DNA from: Pseudomonadota bacterium
GTDB taxonomy: Bacteria > Oederibacteriota > Muellerivitia > Muellerivitales > Muellerivitaceae
Assembly: GCA_021324075.1 (NCBI GenBank)
Contig: JAJPJW010000084.1
Location: 1 to 35,144 of the forward strand
Reading direction: 5' to 3'
Length of the DNA: 35,144 nt
The position numbers and the translations under genes are program-made. The notes under the pieces were generated by a model. The model did not search any database. It was not told the DNA's origin and saw only the letters and a list, made by a program, of their open reading frames with translations. Positions 3,936 to 32,913 of this stretch are shown here, piece after piece. The stretch's first letter is position 1. Each line of letters opens with the position of its first letter.

Positions 3936-4697
3936 ATGGCACGGATTATCTGCATCACCAACCAAAAGGGCGGCGTGGGAAAGACCACCACCACCGTCAA
4001 CCTGGCTTCCTGCATGGCGGCCATCGAGAAAAAAACCCTGCTGGTGGACATGGACCCGCAAGGCAACTCCACCAGCGGCGTGGGGCTGGACAAGACCCAG
4101 TGCGACCCCAATATCTACAACGTGCTGATGGGGGACGCGGACATCCTGGGGGTTATCCGGCCCACCGAACTTAAAAAGCTCTTTTGCGCCCCTTCCAACG
4201 GCCATTTGACCGGCGCCGAAGTGGAATTGGTGGGTTTGGAAGAACGGGAAACACGCCTGAAAAAAGCCCTTTCGTCCATCGCAAAAGATTTCGATTTCAT
4301 CCTGATCGACTGCCCGCCTTCATTGGGCTTTTTGACACTGAACGCCCTGGTGGCCGCCGACTCAGTATTGATTCCGGTCCAAAGCGAGTATTACGCCCTG
4401 GAGGGGTTGAGTTCCCTGATGGAGACGGTGGAACGAATCCGGGAAAGCCTGAACCCCAAGCTGGAAATCGAAGGGGCGCTCCTGACCATGCACGACTCCC
4501 GCACCCGAATCTCCAGCCAGGTGGCGGACGAAGTGCGGAAGTTCTTCGGGGAGAAAGTGTACAATACGGTCATTCCACGCAACGTCCAGCTTTCCGAGTC
4601 GCCTTCCTTCGGAAAGCCCATCATCCTTTATGACATCCGTTCCAGTGGTGCGCAGGCCTATTTAAACCTCACGAAGGAGGTCGTCCGGCATGGCTAA
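3936..4697 (+). CDS. parA: Chromosome partitioning ATPase ParA/Soj
   Basis: MARIICITNQKGGVGKTTTTVNLA deviant Walker A; DFILIDCPPSLGFLTLNAL. Confidence 0.96.
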   Translation: MARIICITNQKGGVGKTTTTVNLASCMAAIEKKTLLVDMDPQGNSTSGVGLDKTQCDPNIYNVLMGDADILGVIRPTELKKLFCAPSNGHLTGAEVELVGLEERETRLKKALSSIAKDFDFILIDCPPSLGFLTLNALVAADSVLIPVQSEYYALEGLSSLMETVERIRESLNPKLEIEGALLTMHDSRTRISSQVADEVRKFFGEKVYNTVIPRNVQLSESPSFGKPIILYDIRSSGAQAYLNLTKEVVRHG

Positions 4698-5550
4698 AAA
4701 AGCGCTGGGACGCGGGCTGGAAGCCCTTATTCCCAAAAAGTTGATGGAGGAAAAGAAGGGTTCCGCCCAACTGGTGCCCCTCTCCAAGATCAAGCCGAAC
4801 CCCTTCCAACCCCGCAAGGTCTTCCGTGCGGAAGAACTGCAGGACTTGGTGCAGTCAGTCAAGGAGAGGGGCATCCTCCAGCCCATTGTGGTGCGAAAGA
4901 AGGGCGACCTTTGGGAAATCATCGCCGGGGAGCGCCGCTACCGTGCAGCCCAAAAACTGGGCCATTTGACCATCCCGGTCATCGAAGTGACGGCTTCGGA
5001 TGTGGAATCCCTGGAACTGGCCCTCATCGAAAACCTCCAGCGCTCCGACTTGTCCCCCCTGGAAGAAGCGGAGGGCTACCGCCGCCTGCAGGATGAATTC
5101 AGCATGACCCAGGAGCAAATCGCCCAGAAGGTGGGAAAGGACCGGGCTACGGTGGCCAACGCCATGCGGCTTTTGAAACTCTCGCCGGAGGTCAAGGCCA
5201 TGCTGGCCTCGGGAGAGCTCACGGCCGGCCATGGGCGGGTTTTAGCGGCCCTGCCGACCCCGCAGGAACAATACAAATGGGCGGACCGCATCGTGCGGCA
5301 GGGTTTTACGGTGCGGGACGTTGAAAAGTGGCTTCAAAACCAAAAAGGCCCGGTGAAAAAAAACAAAGGCAACGGAAAGCCCAAGGATGCCAATGTCGCC
5401 AAGCTGGAGGAGAACCTGCGCAACTGGTTGGGGACCAAAGTGACGGTCAAAACCCAGGGGAAGCAAAAGGGAGTTGTTTACTTTGAATATTATTCCTTGG
5501 ATGACCTGGACCGCATCCTCAGCCTCTTCCGCAAGGCCGGGTATCGTTGA
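4690..5550 (+). CDS. parB: Chromosome partitioning protein ParB/Spo0J
   Basis: ALGRGLEALIPKK; IKPNPFQPRKVF; GERRYRAAQKLG; overlaps parA by 8 nt. Confidence 0.96.
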   Translation: MAKKALGRGLEALIPKKLMEEKKGSAQLVPLSKIKPNPFQPRKVFRAEELQDLVQSVKERGILQPIVVRKKGDLWEIIAGERRYRAAQKLGHLTIPVIEVTASDVESLELALIENLQRSDLSPLEEAEGYRRLQDEFSMTQEQIAQKVGKDRATVANAMRLLKLSPEVKAMLASGELTAGHGRVLAALPTPQEQYKWADRIVRQGFTVRDVEKWLQNQKGPVKKNKGNGKPKDANVAKLEENLRNWLGTKVTVKTQGKQKGVVYFEYYSLDDLDRILSLFRKAGYR

Positions 5551-5574
5551 CAATCAAAGACGTTGTGCTAAATT
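5547..5574 (+). promoter_or_regulatory. Sigma70-like promoter TTGACA-16-TAAATT overlapping the parB stop
   Basis: TTGACA 5547-5552, 16-nt spacer, TAAATT 5569-5574. Confidence 0.5.
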
Positions 5575-5640
5575 AAAAACACTAGTTTGACCCGGAAACA
5601 ACGGTTTCCGGGAATCCTTTTGGCCGAAGGAGAACCAACC

Positions 5641-5925
5641 GTGGGAATTACGGCAGCGGAACAAATTGCCAAGAAAATGGAAGGAGAGGTCAAGCGGCTT
5701 GCGCCCCAGGCTGTGATCCGCAACGACTACTCCAGCTACAAGGACGACGGGGTGGACATTTACGTGTACGCTCCCCGGAAAGTCGCCGATATGTTGCGCG
5801 GGCGATTGAAGGGCACCATGGACGCCGAATTGCGCCGGGTGAAAGGCATTAAGGCAAGGCTCTTGATGGAAGACATCGAGAACATGACGCCGGAAGCCAA
5901 GAAGAAATACGGAATTCCCGTTTAA
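5641..5925 (+). CDS. Small conserved-looking protein of unknown function (~94 aa)
   Basis: GTG start at 5641 preceded by GAAGGAG with 8-nt spacing; MGITAAEQIAKKMEGEVKRLAPQAVIRNDYSSYKDDGVDIYVY... The ORF-track start (TTG 5587) is less likely. Confidence 0.65.
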   Translation: MGITAAEQIAKKMEGEVKRLAPQAVIRNDYSSYKDDGVDIYVYAPRKVADMLRGRLKGTMDAELRRVKGIKARLLMEDIENMTPEAKKKYGIPV

Positions 5926-5962
5926 TTGCGCTTCATTTAAAATCGTTTTTTGCTGGTAAAAT

Positions 5963-6001
5963 AAAAGCCTCTTTCCATGAAAGGAAAGGGGCTTTTTTAT
6001 T
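5963..6001 (+). terminator. Intrinsic terminator
   Basis: AAAGCCTCTTTCC-atgaa-GGAAAGGGGCTTTTTT hairpin (one G-U pair) followed by a T run. Confidence 0.85.
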
Positions 6002-6121
6002 AAGCTTAAATTTCAAAACAAATTTGTTCGGGCAGGTAATTCATCCGGTGGTTTTTCGGATCAAACTACCATGGTTTTTATTTTGCGCCATTCTGCGGCA
6101 AACCGCTTTTGAGGGAGTTTT

Positions 6122-6685
6122 ATGCCTTTTTCAGTGGAACTTTTTTTCGACCCTAAATCTTCCATGGCGGTCCAGCAATGCGGGGCCTTCCTTCAAAAGG
6201 CTGGGGTCCCTTCCATCTTCTCAACCTTAGGGGCTTCACCCCATGTGAGCCTGGCGGTCTTCGAACAATACAATCCTGAACGTCTCCATGCCCTTTTAAA
6301 GAAGCTGGCCGCCAGCTACCCTCCCACCTCTTTCCGGCTTTCCAGTGCCGGGACCTTCTTTGGCAAGGAAGGGGTGCTTTTCCTGGCCCCGGTCGTTACG
6401 GACTCCCTCTTGAAGATCCACGACTGGATCCACCGTGCCCTGCCCAAAGCGGTGGAAGGGAATTGGGTCTATTATTTGCCGGGCGGCTGGGTACCCCATT
6501 GCACCTTGGCCATCCGGCTGACCCCGAAAAAGCTTGGCAAGGGTCTGGAAGTCCTACGCCGAAAAGGGGTTTCGATCCAGGGACGCTATAGTCATTTGGC
6601 ACTGGTGGAAACCCATCCGCGTATCAAGCCCATCCGGTTGATTTATTCCATTCCATTTTCCGGCAATCATCGCAAAAACCCTTGA
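6122..6685 (+). CDS. 2'-5' RNA ligase / 2H phosphoesterase family protein
   Basis: Two spaced HxS/T motifs: SPHVSLAVFE and VPHCTLAIRL; overall length ~187 aa. Confidence 0.8.
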   Translation: MPFSVELFFDPKSSMAVQQCGAFLQKAGVPSIFSTLGASPHVSLAVFEQYNPERLHALLKKLAASYPPTSFRLSSAGTFFGKEGVLFLAPVVTDSLLKIHDWIHRALPKAVEGNWVYYLPGGWVPHCTLAIRLTPKKLGKGLEVLRRKGVSIQGRYSHLALVETHPRIKPIRLIYSIPFSGNHRKNP

Positions 6686-7306: not shown

Positions 7307-7336
7307 TTGACGGCCCTAACTGGCAGGCTTTATAGT
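7307..7336 (+). promoter_or_regulatory. Sigma70-like promoter TTGACG-18-TATAGT for the outer-membrane gene
   Basis: TTGACG 7307-7312, TATAGT 7331-7336; ~290 nt upstream of the start codon, implying a long 5' UTR. Confidence 0.55.
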
Positions 7337-7436
7337 TTGCCAGTTGTTTGTGCGCGGTTTTGGCTTAAAACCTGTGAATTTAACGTAAGTTTCGTGTGAA
7401 ACGGGTTTGAAAAGCTCTCGTTTATAAAGAACCTGT

Positions 7437-7603
7437 CGAGGGTGGCGCTTTTTTGGGAAGCGGCCCACGCTCGTATTGTTCTTCAGCAGTTGGAGCCCCC
7501 TGGCAAGGGTTCCGGAGCAGGTTTGCTCGGGTGTGGCACTCTTCCCTGAGGAGTGCAACCCAAAAAAGGTTGAACCGCCGTGCTTTTCCCTGAGAAGTAC
7601 GGC
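7437..7603 (+). promoter_or_regulatory. Structured 5' UTR with serial hairpins, including two with identical TTCCCTGAG loops
   Basis: Hairpins by inspection: CGAG-g-GTGG-CGCTT/AAGCG-gc-CCAC-g-CTCG (7437-7473); GAGCA/TGCTC (7515-7528); GCACTC-TTCCCTGAG-GAGTGC (7536-7556) with outer GGGT/ACCC (7529-7561); GCCGTGCTT-TTCCCTGAG-AAGTACGGC (7577-7603). Confidence 0.6.
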
Positions 7604-7628
7604 AAAAAAAGCTAAAGGAGAGAGAAGC

Positions 7629-9164: not shown

Positions 9165-9182
9165 GCCTAAGTTAGGTTGACC

Positions 9183-9218
9183 AACCCCGCCCCGGATTCC
9201 GGGGCGGGGTTTTTTTTT
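9183..9218 (+). terminator. Strong intrinsic terminator
   Basis: CCCCGCCCCGG-att-CCGGGGCGGGG (9185-9209) followed by TTTTTTTTT. Confidence 0.95.
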
Positions 9219-9272
9219 GGTGTATTTTCCACAATGGCCGGTCAGAATGAACCAATGATTTTGAGAGGGAAC

Positions 9273-10085
9273 ATGAACCGATTTTTAAAGGTTATTTTCA
9301 GCATTGCACTCCTGGTATTTGGAACCAAATGTGCCCTTGTCGAAGCTGCCCCTGCGACCGGGGAAGCTTCCCCCACCCCGACCCTAACCCTTGAACAGGA
9401 GAAAAAAGATCTCGAGCTTGAAAAACTCCAACTGGAAAACGAGAAATTAAAACTCGAATTAGAAAGGGCGAAGTTGCAGGCGGCCCCGACCGGTGAACCC
9501 GAGCAAAAGGGGGATGATAAAGACAAAGAGGAAAAAGAACGGGCTGTCGACGCTTTTCAAACTTCCATGTCCCAAAAGGCCGAAGCTTTGGCCAAGGAAA
9601 ACAAGGATAAGGAAAATGTCGTCGTCCTGGACCTGGTGAATAGTGAGATGTGGTGCAAGGGTGTCCGTTACAGTGTTCACGAGATGAACGATATCGCCGA
9701 GGATAATCGCTGGAAAATTGACAAACGCTTGGATGAATTGGACCCAGGTGGCGATTCCCGGAACCTTTACCGGTTGAGGAATATTTCCCTTTTAAGATAT
9801 GACACCCGTAAACGCGGTATTCTGGAAATAACCGCCCCGGTCCAGGAGGACGACTTCCAGTTTTTAACGCCGGAAGGGGTTTCCTTCACTTCGGGGATAG
9901 GGGATGTTCGAAATGCCTATCAAAGCCTTTATTTCGCCTTCGACGGAGAAAACCACGAAAACCGCCACGTCATCCTGAAATATATCCACAAAGTGGAATG
10001 GAATTTTTCCGATCGGCTGAATTTTGATTTTGACCGGGATGGAAAGCTCGTTAAGATTCGTTACGGCGTTTTAGACGAAAAGTGA
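9273..10085 (+). CDS. Secreted/periplasmic protein with N-terminal coiled coil, unknown function
   Basis: ATG 9273 after GAGAGGGAAC; signal peptide MNRFLKVIFSIALLVFGTKCALVEA; heptad-like LEQEKKDLELEKLQLENEKLKLELERAKLQ. Confidence 0.65.
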   Translation: MNRFLKVIFSIALLVFGTKCALVEAAPATGEASPTPTLTLEQEKKDLELEKLQLENEKLKLELERAKLQAAPTGEPEQKGDDKDKEEKERAVDAFQTSMSQKAEALAKENKDKENVVVLDLVNSEMWCKGVRYSVHEMNDIAEDNRWKIDKRLDELDPGGDSRNLYRLRNISLLRYDTRKRGILEITAPVQEDDFQFLTPEGVSFTSGIGDVRNAYQSLYFAFDGENHENRHVILKYIHKVEWNFSDRLNFDFDRDGKLVKIRYGVLDEK

Positions 10086-10787: not shown

Positions 10788-10883
10788 AAAACCGCAATTC
10801 AAGATGCAAGGGGATATTTGGGATATAATTTCCTTGAAATCCTCGCAAGCCAAACAAAATCAATCGAAGGCGATTCAAATCCA

Positions 10884-11426
10884 ATGAGTGAAATCATGAC
10901 GGCCCAAGAACTTTCGGCCTACCTGAAGATCACCACTACTACGATCTATAAATTAGCCCAACAGGGAGAAATCCCTTCGTTCAAAATTGGAAGCGAGTGG
11001 CGTTTTAAAAAGGAACTCGTCGATCGTTGGCTGGAAAACGGCGCGGGACACGCCCCCCGGAAAGTCCTTATTGTGGACGACGAGCCGGCCATCTGTGAGC
11101 TTTACAAACGGGCCTTGGACCGCCGGAAGTTCGTCGTGGATTCGGTCAGTTCGGGGCTGGAAGCCATCCAGGCGTCCAAGATGAACAACTATGACATCAT
11201 TTTCCTTGATTTAAAGATGCCGGGGATGAACGGGGTCGATACTTTCAAAGAATTTAAAAAAATCGGATTGCGTTCCCTCGTGGTGATCGTTACCGCCTAC
11301 CCGGACAGTGAACTCTTAAGCGAGGCGATGAAACTGGGCCCCCTGACCGTCATCCTGAAACCCTTCGACCTGAACGAAATCCAGAAATCGGTCGAGTCCC
11401 TCGTTTTGATGACCACCCGCGCCTAA
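10884..11426 (+). CDS. Excisionase-family HTH domain fused to a response-regulator receiver domain
   Basis: MTAQELSAYLKITTTTIYKLAQQGEIPSFKIGSEWRFKKELVDRWLE (Xis/MerR-type HTH) followed by KVLIVDDEPAICELYKRAL...DIIFLDLKMPGMNGVDTF (REC). Confidence 0.88.
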   Translation: MSEIMTAQELSAYLKITTTTIYKLAQQGEIPSFKIGSEWRFKKELVDRWLENGAGHAPRKVLIVDDEPAICELYKRALDRRKFVVDSVSSGLEAIQASKMNNYDIIFLDLKMPGMNGVDTFKEFKKIGLRSLVVIVTAYPDSELLSEAMKLGPLTVILKPFDLNEIQKSVESLVLMTTRA

Positions 11427-18739: not shown

Positions 18740-19999
18740 ATGGATATAGCGGATCTGAAAAAGAAAACCATCGCTGAGTTGACCGAAATGGCCCGGGAGC
18801 TCAACTTGGAAGGTGTCGGCGCGATGAAAAAACAGGACTTGATCTTCAAGATCCTGGAAACCCAGACCCAGCGTAACGGCGTCATCAACGCCGAGGGAGT
18901 GCTGGAAATCCTGCCCGATGGTTTCGGCTTTTTGAGGTCCGCCAATTACAATTACTTGCCCGGTCCCGATGATATTTACGTTTCGCCCTCCCAGATCCGG
19001 CGTTTCAACCTGCGTACCGGCGATACGGTGACCGGGCAGGTCCGTCCCCCCAAGGAAGGGGAGCGTTATTTCGCCCTTTTGAAGGTGGACTCCATCAATT
19101 TTGAGCCGCCCGACGCCGTCAAGCAAAAGGTGCTTTTCGACAACCTGACGCCCATTTATCCCAACAAACGAATCTGGCTGGAAACCGCGCCCGACGACCT
19201 GTCCATGCGGGTGATGGACCTATTGATTCCACTGGGCAAGGGACAGCGGGGGCTCGTCGTGGCGCCTCCCCGTACAGGGAAAACCATCCTCCTCCAGAAG
19301 ATCGCCAACAGCATCGCCAAGAACCACCCGGAGATCTATCTGATCGTACTCCTCATCGACGAGCGTCCGGAAGAAGTGACCGATATGCAACGGTCGGTGA
19401 AGGGCGAAGTGGTCTCTTCCACTTTCGATGAACCACCGGAACGGCATGTGACGGTGGCCGAAATCATCATCGAAAAGGCCAAGCGATTAGTGGAACACAA
19501 GAAGGATGTGGTCATTCTGCTGGATTCCATCACCCGCCTGGGGCGGGCCTATAACACCATCGTGCCTTCCTCGGGCAAAGTGCTTTCAGGCGGCGTGGAT
19601 TCCAACGCCCTTCAACGTCCCAAGCGTTTTTTCGGCGCAGCCCGCGACATCGAGGAAGGGGGAAGCCTGACCATCATCGCCACCGCCCTGATCGATACCG
19701 GCAGCCGCATGGATGAAGTCATCTTCGAAGAATTCAAGGGGACGGGTAATCAGGAAATCGTGTTGGACCGCAAATTGGCGGAACGCCGCATTTTCCCCGC
19801 CTTCGACATCACCCGGTCGGGCACCCGCCGGGAGGAACTGCTGCTCACTGAAGAGGAACTGAACAAGGTTTGGATCTTGAGGAAAATCCTCAACCCCAAC
19901 AACCCCGTGGATGCCATGGAATTCCTTCTGGACAAAATGCGCCGTACCAAGTCCAACAAGGCTTTCCTGGATTCCATGAAGGGAACCGTGAACGAATAA
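18740..19999 (+). CDS. rho: Transcription termination factor Rho
   Basis: [13 protein letters not shown]...[71 protein letters not shown]. Confidence 0.98.
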
Positions 20000-20029
20000 C
20001 TTTGGCCTGATTTGAAGGACTTGAAGCCG

Positions 20030-20959
20030 ATGTATCCTTTTGTGAGAAGGGTTTACCTCGCCGTTGGCGTTGTCTTGGCCCTCTTGTGGTTCGGCATGCT
20101 GGGCCTGGCCGTCCACGCCATGAAACCTCAAATGCTTTCCTTGACTTCGGCCCCGGCACCGGTCGTATCCGAAAACCTCCTGGATTTGTCGCCTTCGCTT
20201 GAAGGAACGGGTCTTCATTTTTCGTCCTACCACCTATCCGCCGGCGAGACTTTCGCAAGCCTTTCGGAAAAGTTCCATCTGTCCGAAGAAACCCTGCGAA
20301 GCCTGAACCAGGCCAATGACAATACCCAGCCACAGACCGGTACCTTGCTCCTGATCCCGTCCAAAGAGGGAATTTTTCATATGGTGCGGCCCGGCCAAAC
20401 CCTGGCTGATATTGCCCGCGCCTATGGTTTGTCCTTAAAAGATATCCTCAAATCCAACCCGCAAAGGGGGGACGCGGATTTGAGGCCGGGGGATGTTTTA
20501 TACCTGCCCGGTGCGGCTTACCTGGCCCGGCAGGATGTCCGATGGCTGGCCCTTCTTTCCTTGACCGACCAAAAAGGTTTTTTGAAACCGACGACCGGCC
20601 GGTTCGCCGATGGTTTCGGGATGCGGTTACATCCCCTTACCCACAAGATGGCCTTCCACGAAGGGCTCGATTTGGCCCCCGGATGGGGCGCCCGGGTGGT
20701 GGCTTCCCAGGACGGAAAAGTCACCTTCGCCGGGATAAGGGCGGGTTACGGACGTCTGATCGTCCTGGACCACGGGTTGGGGTTGACGTCCTGGTATGCC
20801 CATTTGGATGAGATACTCGTGAAGCCAGGTCAGTCGGTCAAAAGAGGGGTACTGATCGGAAAAGTGGGAAATACGGGCCGGGTCACGGGCCCCCACCTGC
20901 ATTTTGAAGTCCGGTTGAATGGGGAGCCGCGGAATCCGCTTCTTTATTTGGCCCAATAA
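20030..20959 (+). CDS. LysM-domain M23 family metallopeptidase (murein hydrolase-like)
   Basis: N-terminal TM; LysM-like SAGETFASLSEKFHLSEETLRSLN and VRPGQTLADIARAYGLSLKDILKSN; M23 HEGLDLAPGWGARVVASQDGKV...YAHLDEI...GPHLHFEV. Confidence 0.9.
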   Translation: MYPFVRRVYLAVGVVLALLWFGMLGLAVHAMKPQMLSLTSAPAPVVSENLLDLSPSLEGTGLHFSSYHLSAGETFASLSEKFHLSEETLRSLNQANDNTQPQTGTLLLIPSKEGIFHMVRPGQTLADIARAYGLSLKDILKSNPQRGDADLRPGDVLYLPGAAYLARQDVRWLALLSLTDQKGFLKPTTGRFADGFGMRLHPLTHKMAFHEGLDLAPGWGARVVASQDGKVTFAGIRAGYGRLIVLDHGLGLTSWYAHLDEILVKPGQSVKRGVLIGKVGNTGRVTGPHLHFEVRLNGEPRNPLLYLAQ

Positions 20960-21060
20960 CCCCCTTTACCGGCCGCCAAGTCCCCGGCCAAGTGGCAGCT
21001 CGGTCCATGCCGCTTATCCTTTTAAAAGGCCGGATAATGAAAGCGGTATAGTCCCCGGCT

Positions 21061-21081
21061 ATTTGCGCCAAAGGCGCAAAT
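21061..21081 (+). repeat. Perfect inverted repeat ATTTGCGCC-aaa-GGCGCAAAT in the intergenic region
   Basis: 9-bp perfect stem with 3-nt loop read directly; no T run follows, so not called a terminator. Confidence 0.7.
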
Positions 21082-21178
21082 TAAGGGACAAGCAGTTCAG
21101 GCGATAGCGTCGTTTTCTGGATTTGATACTCTAGGGTTTGTGATTTTCTGAGAAAGAGCCATCCCTTGACTTCCGCGG

Positions 21179-21206
21179 TTGATTTTTTTAGCTTTTTGAA
21201 TAAACT
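21179..21206 (+). promoter_or_regulatory. Possible promoter TTGATT-16-TAAACT for rpmE
   Basis: TTGATT 21179-21184, TAAACT 21201-21206, ~57 nt upstream of rpmE. Confidence 0.35.
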
Positions 21207-21262
21207 AGCGACCCCTCGGAAAACGAGTGAAAAACGAGTTGCTTGAGAAACGGAGTTGTGGC

Positions 21263-21586
21263 ATGAGAACAGGGATTCACCCCAAATACTTTAAGACAAA
21301 GATCACATGCGTCTGCGGTAACGTTATTGAGACGGCCTCCACCAAAAGTGAGAGCTTTTCGGTTGAAATCTGCTCGGCTTGCCATCCTTTCTTCACGGGT
21401 AAGGTCAAGCTGGTGGACATGGCTGGGCGCGTCGAAAAATTCCAAAAGAAGAGCGCTACCGCCGCCACCGCCCAGGCCGAAACCAAGGCCCGGTTGGAAG
21501 CCAAGGCGGTCGCTGCCGCCGCCAAGAAGGCCAAGCGCCAAGCCGCGCCTCCTCCCGCCGAAAAAAGTTCCGAGCAAAATTCCTAG
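21263..21586 (+). CDS. rpmE: 50S ribosomal protein bL31 with C-terminal Ala/Lys-rich extension
   Basis: [63 protein letters not shown]; stop is TAG before a terminator. Confidence 0.92.
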
Positions 21587-21604
21587 CTTTTCCGCCCAGC
21601 CTTT

Positions 21605-21650
21605 AAAACCTCCGGTTTTTACAGCCGGAGGTTTTTCTTTTTTCTTTAAA
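21605..21650 (+). terminator. Intrinsic terminator after rpmE
   Basis: AAAACCTCCGG-tttttacag-CCGGAGGTTTT (21605-21635) followed by TTCTTTTTTCTTT. Confidence 0.9.
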
Positions 21651-21690
21651 TAATCCCTCTTTTAACACCCTTTGATTCAAAGGCCTTTCC

Positions 21691-22758
21691 ATGATCGAAC
21701 CGAAGCTCCAACAAGCCGAAAAGCGCTACCAGGAATTGTCGGACCGCCTTATCCATCCGGATACCTTCGCCAATTCCTCGGAACTCCAGAAAATTTCAAA
21801 GGAGCATGCGGACTTGGAACCGCTTGTGGAGAAGATCCGGGAATACCGCAAGTTCACGAAGGAAAAGGCGGAGGCCCAATCCCTTTTGGACGGGAACGAC
21901 GCGGAAATGAAGTCGCTCGCCCAAGCCGAGCTTCCCACACTTGAAAGAAGAGTGGAAGAGCTCCACAAGGAATTGAAAAAACTGCTCCTTCCCAAGGACC
22001 CCAACGGCGATAAAAACGCCATTATCGAAATCCGCGCGGGAACGGGAGGGGAATAGGCCGCCCTTTTTGCGGCGGATCTTTTCCGTATGTATTCCCGATA
22101 TATGGAAAAGACAGGGATGAAAATGGAATTGCTTGATTCCAGCTCCACGGAAATCGGCGGGTTCAAGGAAATCATTTTCATGGTCACCGGAAAGGGCGCC
22201 TTCGGAAAATTCCGGTTTGAAAGCGGGACCCACCGTGTCCAGCGCGTTCCAAGAACCGAGGCTTCGGGACGTATTCATACTTCCGCAGCCACGGTGGCAG
22301 TGCTGCCAGAGGTGGATGAGGTGGACATCCAAATCAAGGATTCGGACTTGCGTATCGATACCTTCTGTTCTTCCGGAGCCGGGGGACAAAGCGTTAACAC
22401 CACCTATTCGGCGATCCGGATCACCCATTTGCCTACGGGGCTTGTCGTCCAATGCCAGGACGAACGTTCACAATTGAAAAACAAGGCCAAAGCCATGAAA
22501 GTCCTCTATGCCCGCCTGAAGGAAAAGGCCGACGCGGAGGCCCAGGCCTCCCTTTCGGCGACCCGTAAAAGCCAGGTGGGAAGCGGGGACCGAAGCGAAA
22601 AAATCCGAACTTACAATTTTCCCCAGAACCGCGTGACCGACCACCGTATCGGCCTTACTCTTTACCGATTGGATAAGGTCATGGAAGGGGATTTGGACGA
22701 ATTTCTGGAAGCCCTGGCCTTGGCTTATCAAGAAGAGCAGCTGAAAGAACAGGCTTGA
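21691..22758 (+). CDS. prfA: Peptide chain release factor 1 (RF1), reading frame interrupted by one in-frame UAG at 22054-22056
   Basis: N-terminal part [20 protein letters not shown]...[11 protein letters not shown]-stop; immediately in frame [18 protein letters not shown]...[20 protein letters not shown]...[24 protein letters not shown]...[25 protein letters not shown]; 21691 and 22087 are in the same frame; terminal stop TGA. Confidence 0.95.
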
Positions 22759-22788
22759 GGCAAAACAGCGTTTTGAAGGAGCTTTTGA

Positions 22789-23670
22789 ATGCCGGAAGGA
22801 ACAGGGGCTAAGGAGGTCTGGACGCCGTTGAAAATCATCCAATGGGCGGTTCCTTACCTTACCCAGAAGGGGATAACCAGTCCCCGTATGGACGTGGAAC
22901 TCCTGGTTGCCCATGCCCTTCATTTGGACCGGCTGAAGGTTTACCTTCAGTTTGACCGGCCGTTGGATGGCAGTGAATTGGCGGCCATAAGGGAATTGCT
23001 CAAGCGAAGGGCCCAAAGGGAGCCCCTTCAATACATACTGGGACAGAGGGAGTTTTTTGGCTTTGACTTTAAAGTGGGCCCTGGGGTGCTGATACCACGC
23101 CCTGAAACGGAGCTGCTTGTGGAGGGGGCCTTGAAACATTTGGAGAGATTGCCACTGGAAAATCGTTTGTTTTTGGATCTGGGTACGGGCAGTGGCTGCA
23201 TCGCCTTAGCGGTGGCCAAAAGCATTTCCTGCCAAGTTTGGGCGGTAGATCAATCGGAAAAGGCCCTGGAAATGGCCCAACTTAATGCAAAAAACCTGGG
23301 TGTGGATTCCATACAGTGGCGCCTGGGGGACTGGTTTAAAGCCTTAAAAACCGAGGATCCAGCCCAATTTGGGGTGATTGTCAGCAATCCTCCCTATGTT
23401 TCTCCTGAGGAAAGAGTTGAGTTATCCCCGGAGGTCAGGGATTTCGAGCCGCCCGAGGCCTTGTTCGCAGAAAAACAGGGCTTAAAAGCTTATGAGGATA
23501 TTGCAGTCGGGTTAAAAGAGCGGCTTTTAAGATTAGGCGCCGCATTTTTGGAGATCCACGCCAATGGTTTTGACAAGGTCTCCAGGATCATGGCTCCCTT
23601 GGGATTAAAGGAAACCCTGGAGAGGGACTTGCAAGGACTTCCCCGGATAATTAAGCTTGAAAAACAGTAA
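22789..23670 (+). CDS. prmC: Release factor glutamine methyltransferase PrmC/HemK
   Basis: RRAQREPLQYILGQREFFG...VLIPRPETELLVE...LDLGTGSGCIALA...VSNPPYVSPEE; directly follows prfA. Confidence 0.95.
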   Translation: MPEGTGAKEVWTPLKIIQWAVPYLTQKGITSPRMDVELLVAHALHLDRLKVYLQFDRPLDGSELAAIRELLKRRAQREPLQYILGQREFFGFDFKVGPGVLIPRPETELLVEGALKHLERLPLENRLFLDLGTGSGCIALAVAKSISCQVWAVDQSEKALEMAQLNAKNLGVDSIQWRLGDWFKALKTEDPAQFGVIVSNPPYVSPEERVELSPEVRDFEPPEALFAEKQGLKAYEDIAVGLKERLLRLGAAFLEIHANGFDKVSRIMAPLGLKETLERDLQGLPRIIKLEKQ

Positions 23671-23674
23671 GTTA

Positions 23675-23704
23675 TTGACTCTTTTTGGCGACGATCTGTA
23701 TAAT
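23675..23704 (+). promoter_or_regulatory. Sigma70-like promoter TTGACT-18-TATAAT upstream of rpoB
   Basis: TTGACT 23675-23680, consensus TATAAT 23699-23704. Confidence 0.65.
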
Positions 23705-23719
23705 CACCCCTCTTTGCCC

Positions 23720-23754
23720 AAAACGAGAAAAGCCCTTTCTCGTTTTTTATTTTC
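23720..23754 (+). terminator. Intrinsic terminator or attenuator in the rpoB leader
   Basis: AAAACGAGAAA-agccc-TTTCTCGTTTT 11-bp stem (23720-23746), then TTATTTTC. Confidence 0.75.
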
Positions 23755-23834
23755 TAGGGGCAGTTCTTTCTAAGGGAAGAAATTCCCATAAGCCGCGCAT
23801 GGGCTCATTCCTGTTGTCTTCTGGAGGACTTTCT

Positions 23835-26800
23835 GTGAAAAAAATGAAATACGGCCGCCGCGAACGAATTGATTTCAGCCGCATCTCTTCCATTATGGAG
23901 ATGCCGGACTTGATTGAGTTTCAACGGAAGTCCTATGAGGCGTTTTTGCAGAAAGATGCCACGGTGGATCAACGGGCCGACCAGGGATTACAGTCCGTTT
24001 TCTCCAGCGTTTTCCCCATTTGGGATTTCAACGAAGTTTCCTCCTTGGAGTTCGTTTCCTACACCTTGCTGGAACCAAAGTACAACGTGCGGGAATGCCA
24101 GGAACGCGGCATGACCTATTCGGTTCCCATGAAGGTGACCCTCCGCCTCGTGATCCGCGAGGAAGACCCCGAAACCAATACCAAGAAGGTTAAGGACATT
24201 CGTGAACAGGAAGTTTTCTTCTGCGACCTGCCTATGATGACCGAACGCGGAACCTTCATGATCAATGGCGCTGAGCGCGTCATTGTATCTCAGCTGCACC
24301 GCTCTCCCGGCGTTACCTTCGACGAGGACGACGGCAAACTTTCCTCCTCCGGTAAAAAGATGTACATGACCAGCGTGATTCCCTACCACGGTTCCTGGCT
24401 CGAGTTCGAGTTCGATGTGAACGGTGTGCTTTACGCCCGTATCGACCGCAAGAGGAAATTCGTGGCCTCCACCCTGCTGCGGGGATGGGGCTTTTCGACC
24501 GACGAAGACATCCTGAAAATCTTTTTTGAGATTGAAAACCTGGAAGTTTCCGAAAAGAAGCTGCAAGGCAAGGCGCTTGCCGCCGACGTGGCCCATCCCG
24601 AAACCGGGGAAGTTTTGGTGGAAGCCGGCGCGGATTTCACTGCCGAAGTTGTGGCGGCCCTGAAGAAGCATGGCGTCAAGCAAGTCAAGGCGGCCACTTC
24701 CAATCCCAATGATGTTTCCATTTTGAATACGCTGCGCAAGGACAATACTCATTCGCAGGACACCGCTTTGGTTGAGATCTACAAGAAGATGCGGCCGGGC
24801 GACCCTCCGACGTTGGAAAACGCCAAGAGCCTGATGGACAACCTTTTCTTTAACAAGAAGCGGTACGACCTGGCCCGGGTGGGCCGCTATAAAATGAACA
24901 AAAAGCTGGGAATGAAGACTTCCCTGGAACAGCGCACGATTTCCAAAGAAGACTTGGTGGCCATCATCCGTTACCTCTTCGACCTCTGCAACGGCAAGGG
25001 TGAAAAGGATGATATCGACCACTTGGGCAACCGTCGCGTCCGCACGGCCGGCGAACTCTTGGAAAACAAGCTCCGCCTTGGATTTACCCGCATGGAAAGG
25101 GCGGTCCGGGAACGCATGTCCATCGTCGATATGGACATGAATCCCATGCCCAGCCAGCTTATTTCCACCAAGCCCATTACGGCGGCGGTGAAGGAGTTTT
25201 TCGGAACGTCTCAATTGTCCCAATTCATGGATCAAACCAACCCCTTGGCCGAATTGACCCACAAGCGGCGGTTGTCGGCCCTCGGACCCGGCGGTTTGAA
25301 CCGGGAGCGCGCGGGTTTCGAAGTGCGCGACGTGCACCATACCCATTACGGTCGTGTTTGCCCGATTGAGACGCCGGAAGGTCCGAATATCGGGCTGATT
25401 GCCTCCCTCTCGACTTATGCCCAGATCAATGAATACGGCTTCGTGACCACCCCGTTAAGGAAGGTCGAAGGCGGCAAGGTTTCCAAGAAGATTGAGTTTT
25501 TGCCGGCTGACGACGCCGACAAATACATCATTGCCCAAGCCAACACGCCCTTAGACGACAGCAACAAGTTCTCCAATGACATCATTGCGGCCCGTTATAA
25601 GGACGATTTTCCCATTGTGACCCCCAATGACATCCACTATATGGACGTTTCGCCCCGGCAGTTGTTCTCCGTGGCCACCTCCCTCATCCCCTTCCTTGAG
25701 CACGACGACGCCAACCGCGCCTTGATGGGCTCCAACATGCAACGGCAAGCCGTGCCTTTGATCCGCACCGAGGCTCCTTTCGTGGGTACGGGTATGGAAT
25801 ACAAGGCCGCCTACGATTCGGGTGTTTTGGTCATCGCCAAACGCGACGGCATCGTGGCGGGGGTGTCGTCCGACGAAATCATCATCTTTGCCGACGAAGT
25901 GGATGATACGGGTTCGGTGGATATCTATAAGCTCACCAAGTACAAGCGGTCCAACCAGGACACCTGCATCAACCAACGCCCCATTGTGAAGAAGGGCGAA
26001 AAGGTAAAAAAAGGGGATGTCATTGCCGACGGCCCCTCGACCGACCAAGGTGAATTGGCCCTGGGCCGGAACCTCCTGGTGGCTTTCATGCCCTGGAGGG
26101 GTTTCAACTTCGAAGACGCCATCATCGTGTCCGAGAAGCTGGTCCGCGAGGATTACTTCACCTCCGTCCATATTGAGGAATTCGAGCTGGAAGCCCGGGA
26201 TACCAAGCTGGGCAAGGAAGAAATCACCCGGGATATTCCCAACGTGGGCGACGAGGCCCTGAAGGACTTGGATGAGGAAGGCATCATCCGTATCGGCGCC
26301 GAAGTAGTGCCGGGCGATATCCTGGTGGGGAAAGTTACCCCCAAGGGTGAGACCGAACTCACTCCCGAAGAAAAGCTTTTGAGAGCCATTTTCGGGGAGA
26401 AGGCCGGGGACGTTCGCGACGCCTCCCTGCGCGTTCCACCGGGTGTGGAAGGCAAGGTCATCGACGTCAAGGTCTTCAAGCGCAAGGAAAAGGACGAGAA
26501 GATCAAGGGCCGGGATGCTTCCATGGTCAAAGCCATTGAGAAAGATTCCACCCACAAGATCAAACAGCTGGAAAAGGAAAATGAAAACCGCATCGAGGCC
26601 GTGAAGAAACAGATGGAGGAAAAGGCCAAGGACCTGAACAAGAGTGAGAAAAACGCCCTGGAAGAGCAAGCTGAAGAAGAAATCAAACGCTTGAACGAGG
26701 TCCTGCAGAACCGCGTCAAGGAAATCGAGCGCGAAAAGAACAACGAAATCGAGAAGGTCAAGAAGGGTGACGAATTGCCCCCCGGCGTCATTAAACTCGT

Positions 26801-27524
26801 AAAGGTTTATATCGCCAAGAAGCGCAAATTGTCGGTTGGCGACAAGATGGCAGGCCGTCACGGGAACAAGGGTGTGGTCTCCAAAATCGTGCCAGTGGAA
26901 GACATGCCTTACCTTCCCAACGGGAGGCCAGTGGATATCATCCTGAATCCCCTTGGCGTTCCTTCCCGTATGAACGTGGGACAGATACTGGAAACCCACC
27001 TGGGTTGGGCGGCCCATGAGGGCGGCTACCATGTGGCTTCCCCGGTGTTTGACGGGGCCAAGGAAGAGGAAATCAAGAAAGCCTTAAAGGAACAGAGCCT
27101 GCCCGAATCGGGCAAGATCACCCTGTACGACGGTATGACCGGCGAGTCTTTCGACCAGGAAGTGACCGTGGGTTACATCTATATCTTGAAGCTGGCCCAC
27201 TTGGTCGATGACAAGATCCACGCCCGTTCCATCGGGCCCTATTCCCTCATCACGCAGCAACCCCTGGGCGGCAAGGCCCAGTTTGGTGGCCAGCGGTTCG
27301 GGGAAATGGAAGTCTGGGCTTTGGAGGCTTATGGCGCGGCTTACACCTTGCAAGAACTTTTGACCGTCAAGTCCGACGACGTTCAAGGCCGCACCAAGGT
27401 TTATGAGGCCATTGTTAAGGGCAAGAACGCTCCGGAACCGGGTATCCCCGAATCGTTCAACGTTTTGGTGAAGGAACTGCAAGGTTTGTGTTTGGACGTC
27501 AAACTCATCAAGAATTCGAATTAA
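23835..27524 (+). CDS. rpoB: DNA-directed RNA polymerase subunit beta
   Basis: GTG 23835 preceded by [22 protein letters not shown]...; [28 protein letters not shown]; the ORF-track start at 23685 lies in the leader. Confidence 0.97.
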
Positions 27525-27536
27525 GGAGGGGGATCC

Positions 27537-30500
27537 ATGAGCCAAGTCAAATCAACCACCCCTGAGAATGAAAACGAAGTGACCAAACCGGCAGCTCCGG
27601 AGGCGCCTGTGGCGGCTCCTATGATGGCCGACAAGAAACCAAACCTGGAGGTTCTTCTCAAAGAAACCACCCGGTTTGACGCCATCAAGATCGGCTTGTC
27701 CTCCCCGGAGACCATCCGTTCCTGGTCCCATGGAGAAGTCAAGAAACCGGAGACCATCAATTACCGCACCTTTAAGCCGGAGAAAAACGGTCTTTTCTGC
27801 GAGAAGATTTTCGGCCCAACGAAGGACTGGGAATGCGCCTGTGGTAAATACAAGAGAATCAAGTATAAGGACGTCATCTGCGACCGCTGCGGCGTAGAAG
27901 TCACCCAAGCTAAGGTTCGCCGGGAACGCATGGGCCATATCGAATTGGCCTGCCTGGTTTCCCATATCTGGTACCTCAAAGGTGTTCCCTCCCGCATGGG
28001 TTATCTTTTGGAAATGTCGACCCGTAACCTGGAAAGGGTCATCTATTACGAATCCTATGTGACCCTGGACCCGGGCAAAGCGCCCGTGGAAGTCGGACAG
28101 CTCTTAAGTGAGGACGAATACCAGAAACTCCGCGCTGAATATGGCGCTTCCTTGAAGGCCAAGATGGGTGCAGAGGCTATCCGGGACCTGATCCGCATGG
28201 TCAACCTGGACGATTTGGATAAGAAGTTGCGGGTCCAGATGAAGCAGACCACTAGCGAGCAAAAGCGCAAGACTCTCATCAAGCGTTTGAAGGTCATTGA
28301 GAGTTTCCGCAAGAGCGACAACAAGCCCGAGTGGATGTTCCTTGAAGTTTTGCCCGTCATCCCGCCCGAACTTCGCCCCCTGGTTCCTTTGGATGGCGGC
28401 CGTTTTGCCACCTCCGATTTGAACGACCTTTACCGTCGCGTGATTAACCGTAACAACCGTTTGAAAAAGCTTTTGGAACTGCACGCGCCTGAGGTCATCG
28501 TACGCAATGAGAAACGCATGCTCCAGGAAGCAGTGGACGCCCTTTTGGACAACGGCCGCCGTGGCCACGCTGTGCGCGGGCCGGGTAACCGTCCCTTGAA
28601 ATCCCTTTCCGACATGTTGAAGGGAAAGCAGGGTCGTTTCCGCCAGAACCTTTTGGGAAAGCGTGTCGATTATTCGGGCCGTTCGGTCATTGTCGTGGGA
28701 CCTGAACTGAAGATGCACCAATGCGGTCTTCCCAAGAAGATGGCTTTGGAACTCTTCAAGCCTTTTATCATCAAGAAGCTGGAGGACCGAGGTTACGTCC
28801 ATACCATCAAGAGCGCACGCAAGATGGTCGAGCGCGTGAAGCCGGAGGTTTGGGACATCCTGGCCGAGGTTATCCGCGACCATCACGTGCTCTTGAACCG
28901 CGCCCCGACCCTGCACCGTCAGGGTATCCAGGCATTCCAGCCGGTCCTCATTGAGGGCCGCGCTATCCAGATCCATCCGCTCGTTTGCACGGCCTTCAAC
29001 GCCGACTTCGACGGAGACCAGATGGCCGTCCATGTGCCCCTGTCCAGCGAGGCCCAGATGGAAGCGCGTTTCTTGATGCTGTCGACCAACAACATCAATT
29101 CCACCTCCAACGGCCGTCCTATCGTGACTCCGACCCAGGATATCGTCTTGGGTTCGTATTACATCACGAAGGAAATGCCGGGCGACAAAGGCGAGGGTAG
29201 GGTTTTCTCCGGCCCCCAGGAAGTCGTCATCGCCCTGGATGCCAAGCAAGTGGGCAAGCACGCCCGTATCAAAGTTCGCCGCAACGGGAAGTTGATTGAC
29301 ACTACCGTCGGACGGGTATTGTTCAACCAAGTCATCCCCTCGGATTTGCCATATGTCAATCGGGTCATGACCAAGAAGGAATTGGGCGACTTAGTGGCCC
29401 TTTGCTACGAAAAGTTGGGCCCCGAGGTAACCGTCAAGCTTCTGGACGACGTCAAGGAACTTGGCTTCAAGTATGCAACCCAGGCGGGAATCACAGTTTC
29501 CATTGATGACATGAAGATTCCGAAGGACAAGCCTGAAATCCTGAAGCGTTCTTACAAAGAAGTCGCCGAAATCGAGAACCAGTACAAGAAAGGCATCATC
29601 ACCGGCGGCGAACGGTACAACAAAGTCATCGACATTTGGACCCACACCACCGATGAAATCGCGGAAGTCATGTTTGAGAACCTCAAACAAGATCACCATG
29701 GGTTCAACCCCATTTACATGATGGCGGATTCAGGCGCCCGCGGTTCCAAGATGCAGATCCGCCAATTGGCGGGTATGCGCGGACTGATGGCCAAGCCCCT
29801 GCAGAAAATCACGGGGTCCATCGGTGAAATCATCGAATCTCCCATTACGGCCAATTTCCGGGAAGGCCTCACGGTGTTGGGATACTTCATTTCCACCCAC
29901 GGCGCCCGCAAGGGTTTGGCCGACACCGCCTTGAAGACAGCGGACGCGGGGTACCTGACCCGCCGCCTGGTGGACGTCTCACAGGAAGTCATCATTAACG
30001 TAGAAGATTGCGGCACTGTGAATGGCATCCGCGTGGGAGCCATCAAGGAAGGCGTCGAGATTATCGAGCCTTTGAAGGACCGCATCGGCGGCCGAGTGGC
30101 CGTGGATAACGTGGCCAACCTGCTCACTTCCGAGGTCATTGTACGTTCGGGCCAGATCATTACCGAAGACATCGCCGAAAAGCTGGAAGAGGCGGGTATC
30201 GAACAGATTCGCGTCCGTTCGGTCCTAACCTGCGAATTGGAACGCGGCGTCTGTGCGAAGTGCTATGGCGTGAATATGTCCAACGGCAGGCTGGTCCAAA
30301 TCGGTGAAGCGGTTGGCATCATCGCCGCCCAGTCCATCGGCGAACCGGGGACGCAGTTGACCCTCCGGACCTTCCACGTGGGCGGCGCCGCCAGCCGTGC
30401 CCTGGAACAATCCAAGATCGAATCGACGAAGAACGGCGTTGTGAGGTTCCATAATCTGAAACTGGTCGAGAACCGCAATAAGGAACTGATCGTCTTGAAC

Positions 30501-31778
30501 CGTAACGGTGAGATCTCGGTTTATGACGAAAAAGGAAGGGCCATGGAGAACCATGTGGTTCCATTTGGCTCGACCTTGAAAGTACGGGAAGAAGCTACCG
30601 TCCGGGAAGGCCAACTGTTGGCCCACTGGGATCTTTACAAGGTTCCCATTTTCACGGAAGTCTCCGGTAAGGTGAAACTGCAGGATGTTCTCCGCGGCGT
30701 AACGGTGCGCGAAGAGATTGATGCTTCCACCGGTTTGAAAGAACGCGCCATTATCGAATACAAGGATGAAAATCTGTCGCCCCGTTGTGTCATCATGAAT
30801 CCGGAAACTGGAGAAGCCGTCAAGAGTTACCGACTGCCGACAGGCTCCCTCATCAATGTGATGGACGGAGACAATATCATGGCCGGTGACATCCTGGCGA
30901 AGATCCCGCGTGAAATGTCCAAAACCCGCGATATTACCGGTGGTCTGCCCCGGGTCGCCGAACTTTTCGAGGCTCGCCGTCCCAAAGGCAACGCGGTCAT
31001 CGCCAAGATTGCCGGAACGGTCGGATTCGGAACCGCTTCGAAGGGTTATCAACGGGTGATTGTGACCAACACGGAAGGCAAAAAAAGCATCGAGGAAGAA
31101 TACGCCATTCCCTATGGCAAGCATCTAAACATCCACGAGGGCGACTACGTCCGTCCTGGCGATGCCTTGACGGATGGTCCGGTGGACCCGCATGACATCC
31201 TGGAAGTGCAGGGTGAAGCGGCGGTCCAGGAATACCTGCTCTCCAAGGTCCAGGAGGTTTACCGCCTCCAGGGCGTTAAGATCAATGACAAGCACATCGA
31301 AGTGATTATCCGGCAGATGATGCGCAAGATCGTCGTGCAGGAAGCGGGAGAAACCGAGTTCCTTCCCAAACAACAGGTGGACAAGGGTAAGTTCAAGAAG
31401 GAAAACGAACGGGTCGGTGATAAAGATGGAAAAACCGCCACGGCCCGCCCCATCCTTTTGGGGATCACCAAGGCCTCTTTGGGCACCGAGAGCTTCATTT
31501 CGGCCGCCAGCTTCCAAGAAACCACCAAGGTTCTGACGGAAGCGGCGGTTTCGGGAAAAGTCGATGAATTGCGAGGCTTGAAAGAAAACGTGATTATGGG
31601 ACATTTGATCCCGGCCGGGACGGGCAGTGCCTTTTACCGCGGGGTCAAGATCAAGGTTGACGAACCGGAGGAAGAGCTTCCGGTGGGCATCGCAGCCCCC
31701 CCCTCGGCCGAAATGGAAGAGGGCGATTTGAAGGCGAATGAAGGCGAAACTACCAAAAAAAGCCTTGACCAGGCCTAG
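27537..31778 (+). CDS. rpoC: DNA-directed RNA polymerase subunit beta'
   Basis: [62 protein letters not shown]; stop is TAG. Confidence 0.98.
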
Positions 31779-31836
31779 GTCCTTTGGTAGCCTACCCGTC
31801 CGCGTTTGAGCTCGTTAGTTGGTCATAGCGGTTGAG

Positions 31837-32000
31837 AAATCCTCCTTTTGGGCGGTGCCGGAAGAGTGGCACTTACCAAACGGGTGAGCTAGAGGAGGGA
31901 TTTGCTTGAAGATTCCCCCTTGAACCTTTTTCACGAGGTTCAGGGTGACGTATGGAATATTCACTTGGCAAAGGCGGAGCTCACTGTCTTTGCCTTTTTT
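31837..32000 (+). promoter_or_regulatory. Structured leader of rpsL ending in an intrinsic terminator
   Basis: Long-range AAATCCTCC (31837-31845)/GGAGGGATTT (31894-31903); GTGCC/GGCAC (31855-31872); CCC-TTGAACC/GGTTCA-GGG (31917-31945); GGCAAAG/CTTTGCC (31967-31994) + TTTTTT. Confidence 0.55.
31967..32000 (+). terminator. Intrinsic terminator between rpoC and rpsL
   Basis: GGCAAAG-gcggagctcactgt-CTTTGCC followed by TTTTTT, only ~26 nt upstream of the rpsL start. Confidence 0.75.
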
Positions 32001-32025
32001 ATTTTATGGGTAAGTGGAGGGATCT

Positions 32026-32415
32026 TTGCCGACGCTGAATCAGCTGGTCCGCATGGGCCGTGAGAAGAGCAAACATAAAACGAAATCACCCGCTTTGAAG
32101 GCTTGTCCCCAAAAGCGTGGTGTCTGTGTCAAAGTGGCCACCATGACGCCGAAGAAGCCCAACTCGGCCCTTCGGAAGATCGCCCGTGTGCGGTTGACCA
32201 ACGGAATGGAAGTGACTTGCTATATCCCGGGTGTCGGCCACAATTTGCAGGAGCACTCGATTGTCTTGATCCGCGGCGGCCGCGTGAAGGACCTTCCGGG
32301 TGTCCGTTATCACATCATCCGCGGTGCTTTGGATGCCGCCGGAGTAGCCGACCGCAAGCAGGGACGGTCCAAGTATGGAATGAAGCGGCCTAAAAAAGAC
32401 GCCGCTAAAGCTTAA
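32026..32415 (+). CDS. rpsL: 30S ribosomal protein uS12
   Basis: TTG 32026 ([12 protein letters not shown]) preceded by [37 protein letters not shown]. Confidence 0.97.
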
Positions 32416-32427
32416 GGAGAGCACCCA

Positions 32428-32898
32428 ATGCCCCGTCGAAAAGTAGCCGCGAAACGCGAAATTCTTTCCGATTCGCGTTACAACAACAAGTTGGTGGCCA
32501 AGTTCATCAATTGCATGATGTATGACGGCCAAAAAATGGTGGCTACTCAAAGCTTTTATGAAGCCCTGGATGTTTTGGGCCAAAAGCATGGGGAAGGCGC
32601 CTTGAATGTGTTCAAGACCGCCATTGAGAACGTGAAGCCAGTTTTGGAAGTCAAGTCCCGCCGGGTCGGCGGCGCCACATACCAAGTTCCCGTGGAAATT
32701 CGTCCTGAACGCAGGGTTTCCCTGGCCATTCGGTGGATTTTGACCGCGGCCCGCGCCCGCAAGGAAAAAACCGTCGCCGAGAAATTGGCGGCCGAATTGA
32801 CCGATGCCTTCAAGAACCAGGGTACGGCCATCAAGAAAAAAGAAGATACCCATAAAATGGCGGAAGCTAACCAGGCCTTCGCCCACTATCGCTGGTAA
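32428..32898 (+). CDS. rpsG: 30S ribosomal protein uS7
   Basis: [61 protein letters not shown]. Confidence 0.97.
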
Positions 32899-32913
32899 TT
32901 TCGAGGAAAGAAA

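Follow-up and report, generated by a model that had tools for sequence, protein, structure and literature searches.

Constant-tip hairpins upstream of a porin-like gene: a candidate family of cis-acting leader RNAs in FCPU426 bacteria

Two hairpins that differ in their stems and share their tip stand in tandem directly ahead of a barrel gene in the window, a 35,144-nt stretch of DNA (coordinates on the + strand) from a genome, G000, that is 98% complete. The question raised by this locus is whether the hairpins belong to a regulatory RNA and, if so, what reads them. In our best reading, they belong to a cis-acting leader RNA that is a candidate for a new family, associated with envelope-protein genes of FCPU426 bacteria.

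Architecture of the leader and its gene

A preliminary description of the locus had placed the hairpins GCACTC-TTCCCTGAG-GAGTGC (7536-7556) and GCCGTGCTT-TTCCCTGAG-AAGTACGGC upstream of the gene, each followed by a run of A, the second run leading into AAAGGAGAGA and the ATG; all these elements are present. The nine identical nucleotides reported for both hairpins were also confirmed, but not as an open nine-nucleotide loop: in the predicted fold of most copies, UUC pairs with GAG and leaves a three-nucleotide CCU loop, larger terminal loops being found in the second copy of G001 and in the copy of G008. Exact matches to TTCCCTGAG occur in the window at these two sites only. The first hairpin is extended by a basal helix, GGGU/ACCC, formed by 7529-7532 and 7558-7561. 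Both hairpins fold far more favorably than shuffled sequences: the z-scores are -3.9 for the first hairpin, -7.7 for the second, and -4.5 for the whole stretch.

The feature is wider than the originally delimited segment 7529-7603. The two hairpins constitute the 3' part of a leader of approximately 290 nt that extends from a promoter-like site to the start codon of the barrel gene (Table 1); from the position of this site, we infer a transcript start near 7344 and a 5' UTR of about 290 nt. Upstream of the two hairpins, hereafter Ca and Cb, the leader contains a variable middle region B and a further hairpin, A, that had been missed and is conserved more strongly than the C hairpins. The hairpins stop 25 nt before the ATG. 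A strong intrinsic terminator lies directly behind the gene, and thus the porin mRNA is probably monocistronic.

Table 1. Features of the leader and of the gene that it precedes
Feature	Position	Strand	Remark
Promoter-like site, sigma70-type, TTGACG-18-TATAGT	7307-7336	+	leader start
Module A block, 49 nt	7436-7484	+	49/49 identity in G000, G003, G005, G007
Hairpin A, CGAGGGUGGCGCUUUUUUGGGAAGCGGCCCACGCUCG	7437-7473	+	local fold or pairing with hairpin Ca
Variable middle region B	7475-7528	+	at least one hairpin; sequence and length vary
Hairpin Ca, GCACUC-UUCCCUGAG-GAGUGC, with basal GGGU/ACCC helix	7529-7561	+	
A6 spacer	7562-7567	+	
Hairpin Cb, GCCGUGCUU-UUCCCUGAG-AAGUACGGC, second copy	7577-7603	+	genus g1 only
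A7 spacer, leading towards the ribosome-binding site	7604-7610	+	A-rich in all orthologous leaders
Ribosome-binding site AAAGGAGAGAGAAGC	7614-7628	+	AAGGAGAGAGAAG invariant in family f1
Barrel (porin-like) gene, 511 aa	7629-9164	+	putative controlled gene
Intrinsic terminator, just 3' of the porin gene	9183-9211	+	13-pair stem with 11 GC, then T7

The 511-aa product has no match in Pfam. Its AlphaFold2 model, built with six orthologs, is a barrel of moderate confidence (pLDDT 63, pTM 0.67), and the best fold match in PDB is outer membrane protein A of Bdellovibrio (TM-score 0.44 by query, 14% identity). The protein is therefore likely, although not proven, to be a porin-like outer-membrane beta-barrel.

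The genomic surroundings of the porin gene are partly shared. In five genomes, it is followed by a gene for a coiled-coil-like exported protein without a Pfam match (window 9177-10085, L054:9285, L056:8468, L057:10621, L058:8943), which in G000, G001, and G005 is followed in turn by a gene for a protein with HTH_17 and receiver domains (window 10818-11426). In genus g1, the porin gene is preceded by parA-parB and a gene resembling 2'-5' RNA ligase (window 3936-6685), and in G003, G005, and G008, it is preceded by glmS (L054, L056, L058); the porin block has therefore changed its 5' neighbor and retained the leader. The rest of the window (18740-35001) contains core genes, namely those for Rho (18740-19999), a PrmC-like methyltransferase, rpoB (23685-27524), rpoC (27537-31778), and EF-G (32914-35004).

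Conservation of the C hairpin in orthologous leaders

Porin orthologs with about 28-40% identity were found in four genomes of the same family (G001, G003, G005, G007) and in one genome of the same order (G008). Each of the five orthologous genes is preceded at approximately 300 nt by a similar promoter (a TTGAC(A)-17/18-TATATT-like site) and carries a C hairpin before its start codon. The preliminary description had proposed to check whether the tip is conserved in such leaders, and the motif is indeed kept in all five further species. Its view of the hairpins as a duplicated element holds for a structured RNA element and not for the duplication as a general state: two copies were observed only in G000 and G001, the two species of genus g1 with the porin gene, whereas each leader of G003, G005, G007, and G008 contains a single copy. 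The counterpart of Cb in G001 (L057:9015-9053) has a different stem.

In G003, three leaders are arranged in tandem, preceding the porin gene and two neighboring genes whose NHL-repeat products bear lipoprotein-like signal peptides, and for this reason the leader appears to serve different exported proteins. The two NHL-repeat genes are adjacent (L054:4320-5402 and 5546-6614, on G003:C107), and their DNA is near-identical over the initial segment of the signal-peptide sequence, which looks as though a cassette for expression and export, made up of leader and signal peptide, had undergone duplication.

The sample behind the family thus consists of six species and eight leaders. The suggestion that the stems covary around a fixed tip was borne out both by a stem test on the nine distinct C copies and by a leave-out model. 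Over the eight stem pairs, 88.9% of cells are paired and 9 cells carry changes in both arms. Neither value was attained in any of 500 shuffles, and pairing amounted to 36-61% when the register was slid. The second copy of G001 was scored without its 2-nt gap, which makes the stem count a conservative one. Trained without G001 and G008, a covariance model recovered both G001 copies in 90 kb (E-values 3.8e-8 and 0.019) and did not recover the G008 copy. The reach of the family beyond the taxonomic family rests on the position of the G008 copy and on its hairpin, seen by eye and found by a model trained on that copy. At the level of the whole leader, RNAalifold analysis of six leaders resolved the structured regions A, B, and C and found double-sided changes at seven pairs; 2 of 500 shuffles were as good. 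Helices 2 and 3 of this consensus, which carry double-sided changes, belong to region B, and the window copy of this region is also folded.

When 59 genomes were searched with the model built from all copies, nine strong matches in six species were obtained, every one of them in leaders at one locus, and the search repeated over 45 genomes of the phylum returned the same strong matches. No clear C copy was found elsewhere in the 59 genomes, the remaining matches having E-values of 0.017 or higher; nine weak matches in other genomes were inspected, had other contexts, and were judged to be chance hits. A repetitive or mobile element was rejected as well, since neither the own genome nor related genomes contain convincing extra copies, and a one-mismatch match in the own genome, TTCCCTGGGGAGTGC (C115), has no leader context. 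The C hairpin combines compensatory stem changes and a conserved tip across orthologous leaders with a fixed position 5' of start codons, and it has no clear copy elsewhere in the 59 genomes. As anticipated, it could not be assigned to a known RNA class: Rfam 15 gave no match in the window at gathering scores, and the leader searched at E-values up to 10 matched only rli43, at a chance-level 11.8 bits, where the gathering score is 100.

Module A and its alternative pairing

All 49 nucleotides of 7436-7484 are identical in G000, G003, G005, and G007, that is, in four species of three genera. By contrast, identity is about 46-50% over the porin DNA and about 45-54% at synonymous positions of the porin gene and its neighbors, which are near saturation. 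The exact module A core, GCGCTTTTTTGGGAAGCGG, occurs only in these leaders, including that of G007; it was not found in viral contigs, and a phage origin was rejected. In G001, which belongs to the same genus as the window, a diverged hairpin, GGGGCCCUUUUGGGAGCGGCUCC, stands in place of A. We interpret this cross-genus identity of module A as a sign of purifying selection. Recent exchange of the leader between species is an alternative source of this identity, conceivable because the congener G001 differs in this very module. Ahead of module A, an extra 5' hairpin, CUUCGAC...GUCGAGG, was observed in G003, G005, and G007 (L054:7378-7425, L055, L056), with G-U changes in copy 2 of G003; it is absent from G000 and G001.

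Besides folding alone, module A shows complementarity to Ca, so that two mutually exclusive folds are predicted. In four species, the A:C duplex has an energy of -44 to -45 kcal/mol versus about -35 to -39 kcal/mol for the two local hairpins, none of 300 shuffles gave a duplex energy as good, and all 25 modeled pairs, from which the basal four pairs were left out, can form. The A:C pairing has a probability of 0.89 in the full-length leader, and the C hairpin folds locally when A is omitted. G001 and two of the G003 copies have a weakened A:C helix. Covariation does not distinguish it, since 172 of 500 shuffles were as good and only one double change was observed; moreover, A and C have similar 5' arms, and part of their complementarity may therefore be due to hairpin repetition. 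The long-range helix was thus rejected as the sole structure and kept as a possible alternative fold, and that it acts as a switch we consider doubtful.

Possible modes of action and known systems

The hairpins and the ribosome-binding site do not appear to be linked by direct pairing. The preliminary description had suggested that CUUUUC of the second hairpin pairs with GGAGAG of the Shine-Dalgarno (SD) region, an idea contradicted by the folding ensemble, in which the probability of this pairing is 0.000 for three leader lengths and no pairing of a C hairpin with the SD was found. The probability that the SD is unpaired spans 0.08-0.99 across the eight leaders: it is mostly unpaired in four of them (0.73-0.99) and has values of 0.08-0.47 in G008, G003_2, and G000, and consistent sequestration in all members, as is characteristic of a thermometer, was not observed. 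Both the zero pairing probability and the variable accessibility make plain SD sequestration unlikely as the shared mechanism. A transcription attenuator was rejected, since the leader contains no terminator-like site and its hairpins are followed by runs of A rather than U. Among the known RNA-binding proteins, a search of ten genomes (a set without G007) revealed neither Hfq nor ProQ. CsrA was not detected in G000-G006 and G008 (G007 was not in this set either) and was found only in G009, which represents another family outside the order; the tips, UUCCCUGAG, contain no GGA, the signature of CsrA targets. KH proteins of the KhpA/KhpB type are present in these genomes and are no more than candidates for the tip-binding factor.

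Regulation by the leader in cis at the RNA level is quite probable. That the tip stays fixed while the stems change points to a trans-acting factor that recognizes it; the reading in which RNA-level regulation and such recognition are combined seems to us evenly balanced, and tip recognition as a separate part falls slightly short of that. Under the combined reading, the leader would act after transcription start, affecting the initiation of translation on the porin mRNA, the stability of this mRNA, or both, and the C tip would be a sequence-specific site for an RNA-binding protein or a small RNA. Display of the tip would depend on the choice between the local hairpins and the A:C helix, and the second C copy of genus g1, lacking a partner in A, would be available at all times. 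In its boldest form, a proposal that we regard as unlikely, the upstream hairpin competes for one or two recognition hairpins that have the invariant tip and thereby masks or exposes them, forming a new class of riboregulators that controls a post-transcriptional envelope regulon of porin and NHL lipoproteins in a branch of the phylum without detectable Hfq, CsrA, and ProQ.

Several other explanations were weighed. The leader could be a passive stabilizer or standby site, in which hairpins and A-rich spacers protect a highly expressed porin mRNA against nucleases and keep the ribosome-binding site open while the tip remains unread. This explanation would agree with the length and structure of a 5' UTR that precedes the gene of a predicted major outer-membrane protein, with the A-rich single strands ahead of a strong ribosome-binding site, and with an SD that is mostly unpaired in half of the leaders; a precedent is the E. 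coli ompA mRNA, which is stabilized by 5' UTR elements (PMC2777011). Yet a shield needs stems, and neither a constant tip nor a 49-nt block identical across genera; this strict conservation seems to exceed the need of a passive stabilizer, and the SD is predicted to be paired in some leaders. We therefore hold passive stabilization to be rather unlikely. A metabolite or ion riboswitch, with A, B, and C as one ligand-binding fold and the A:C pairing as its switch, would account for the two exclusive folds predicted in four species and for the high conservation of A; it appears very improbable given the lack of an Rfam class, the freely varying middle, the duplication of C alone, target genes (porin and NHL lipoproteins) that suggest no ligand, the missing terminator, and the inconsistent SD sequestration.

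Operator sites for a transcription factor 3' of the promoter, or a recombination site spreading the leader among surface genes, would be compatible with the perfect inverted repeats, with the three adjacent leader copies in G003, and with a module A that is identical in three genera and diverged within the window's genus, as leader exchange would produce. Such a DNA-level signal is nevertheless improbable, because varying arms around a constant spacer are the opposite of what an operator shows, G-U pairs are retained, and all copies occupy one locus in constant orientation and at constant distance before the start codon. Finally, a leader peptide or small ORF (GTG GCG CTT TTT TGG GAA GCG GCC ...) might explain the conservation of module A, through which a frame is open in four species. 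Third codon positions are, however, as invariant as the others, copy 3 of G003 lacks the GTG and has an in-frame stop after eight codons of the block, and G001 lacks the frame; the sequence thus largely refutes this explanation, which we find scarcely credible.

To our knowledge, RNA regulation is next to undescribed in uncultured phyla such as FCPU426. A leader identical across genera, upstream of a porin that is only 28-40% identical, would mean that control of this outer-membrane gene is more constrained than most of the protein, and the leader offers a concrete bait for an RNA-binding factor in bacteria without detectable Hfq, CsrA, and ProQ. If the riboregulator proposal is true, the class would form an envelope regulon.

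Comparison with known systems reveals partial similarities. Like the E. coli ompA 5' UTR, the leader is a long structured leader of an outer-membrane barrel gene, with hairpins split by single strands before the SD. The E. coli ompA leader is a target of MicA and Hfq, whereas Hfq was not found in the ten genomes considered here; furthermore, the two leaders have no sequence relation, and the fixed UUCCCUGAG tip, the tandem copy, and the cross-genus identical block are features of the present one. The target leaders of CsrA/RsmA resemble it in having repeated hairpins near the SD, which are protein-binding sites in that system, and differ from it in the GGA-containing tips and in a regulator that was found here only in G009. 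Orphan candidate structured RNAs known from comparative genomics (PMC2864571, PMC8040213) are likewise covarying leaders upstream of a fixed gene type; the present leader, having no match in Rfam 15, is likened to them by kind and not motif by motif. In the ompA RNA thermometer of Yersinia pseudotuberculosis, structure at the SD melts with temperature (PMC8245352). Both are structured 5' UTRs of outer-membrane proteins that could act on translation, although the SD is not consistently sequestered in the leaders described here. By analogy, and being a member of neither by the tests made, the leader would work most like these outer-membrane protein leaders, those of E. coli ompA and Yersinia ompA.
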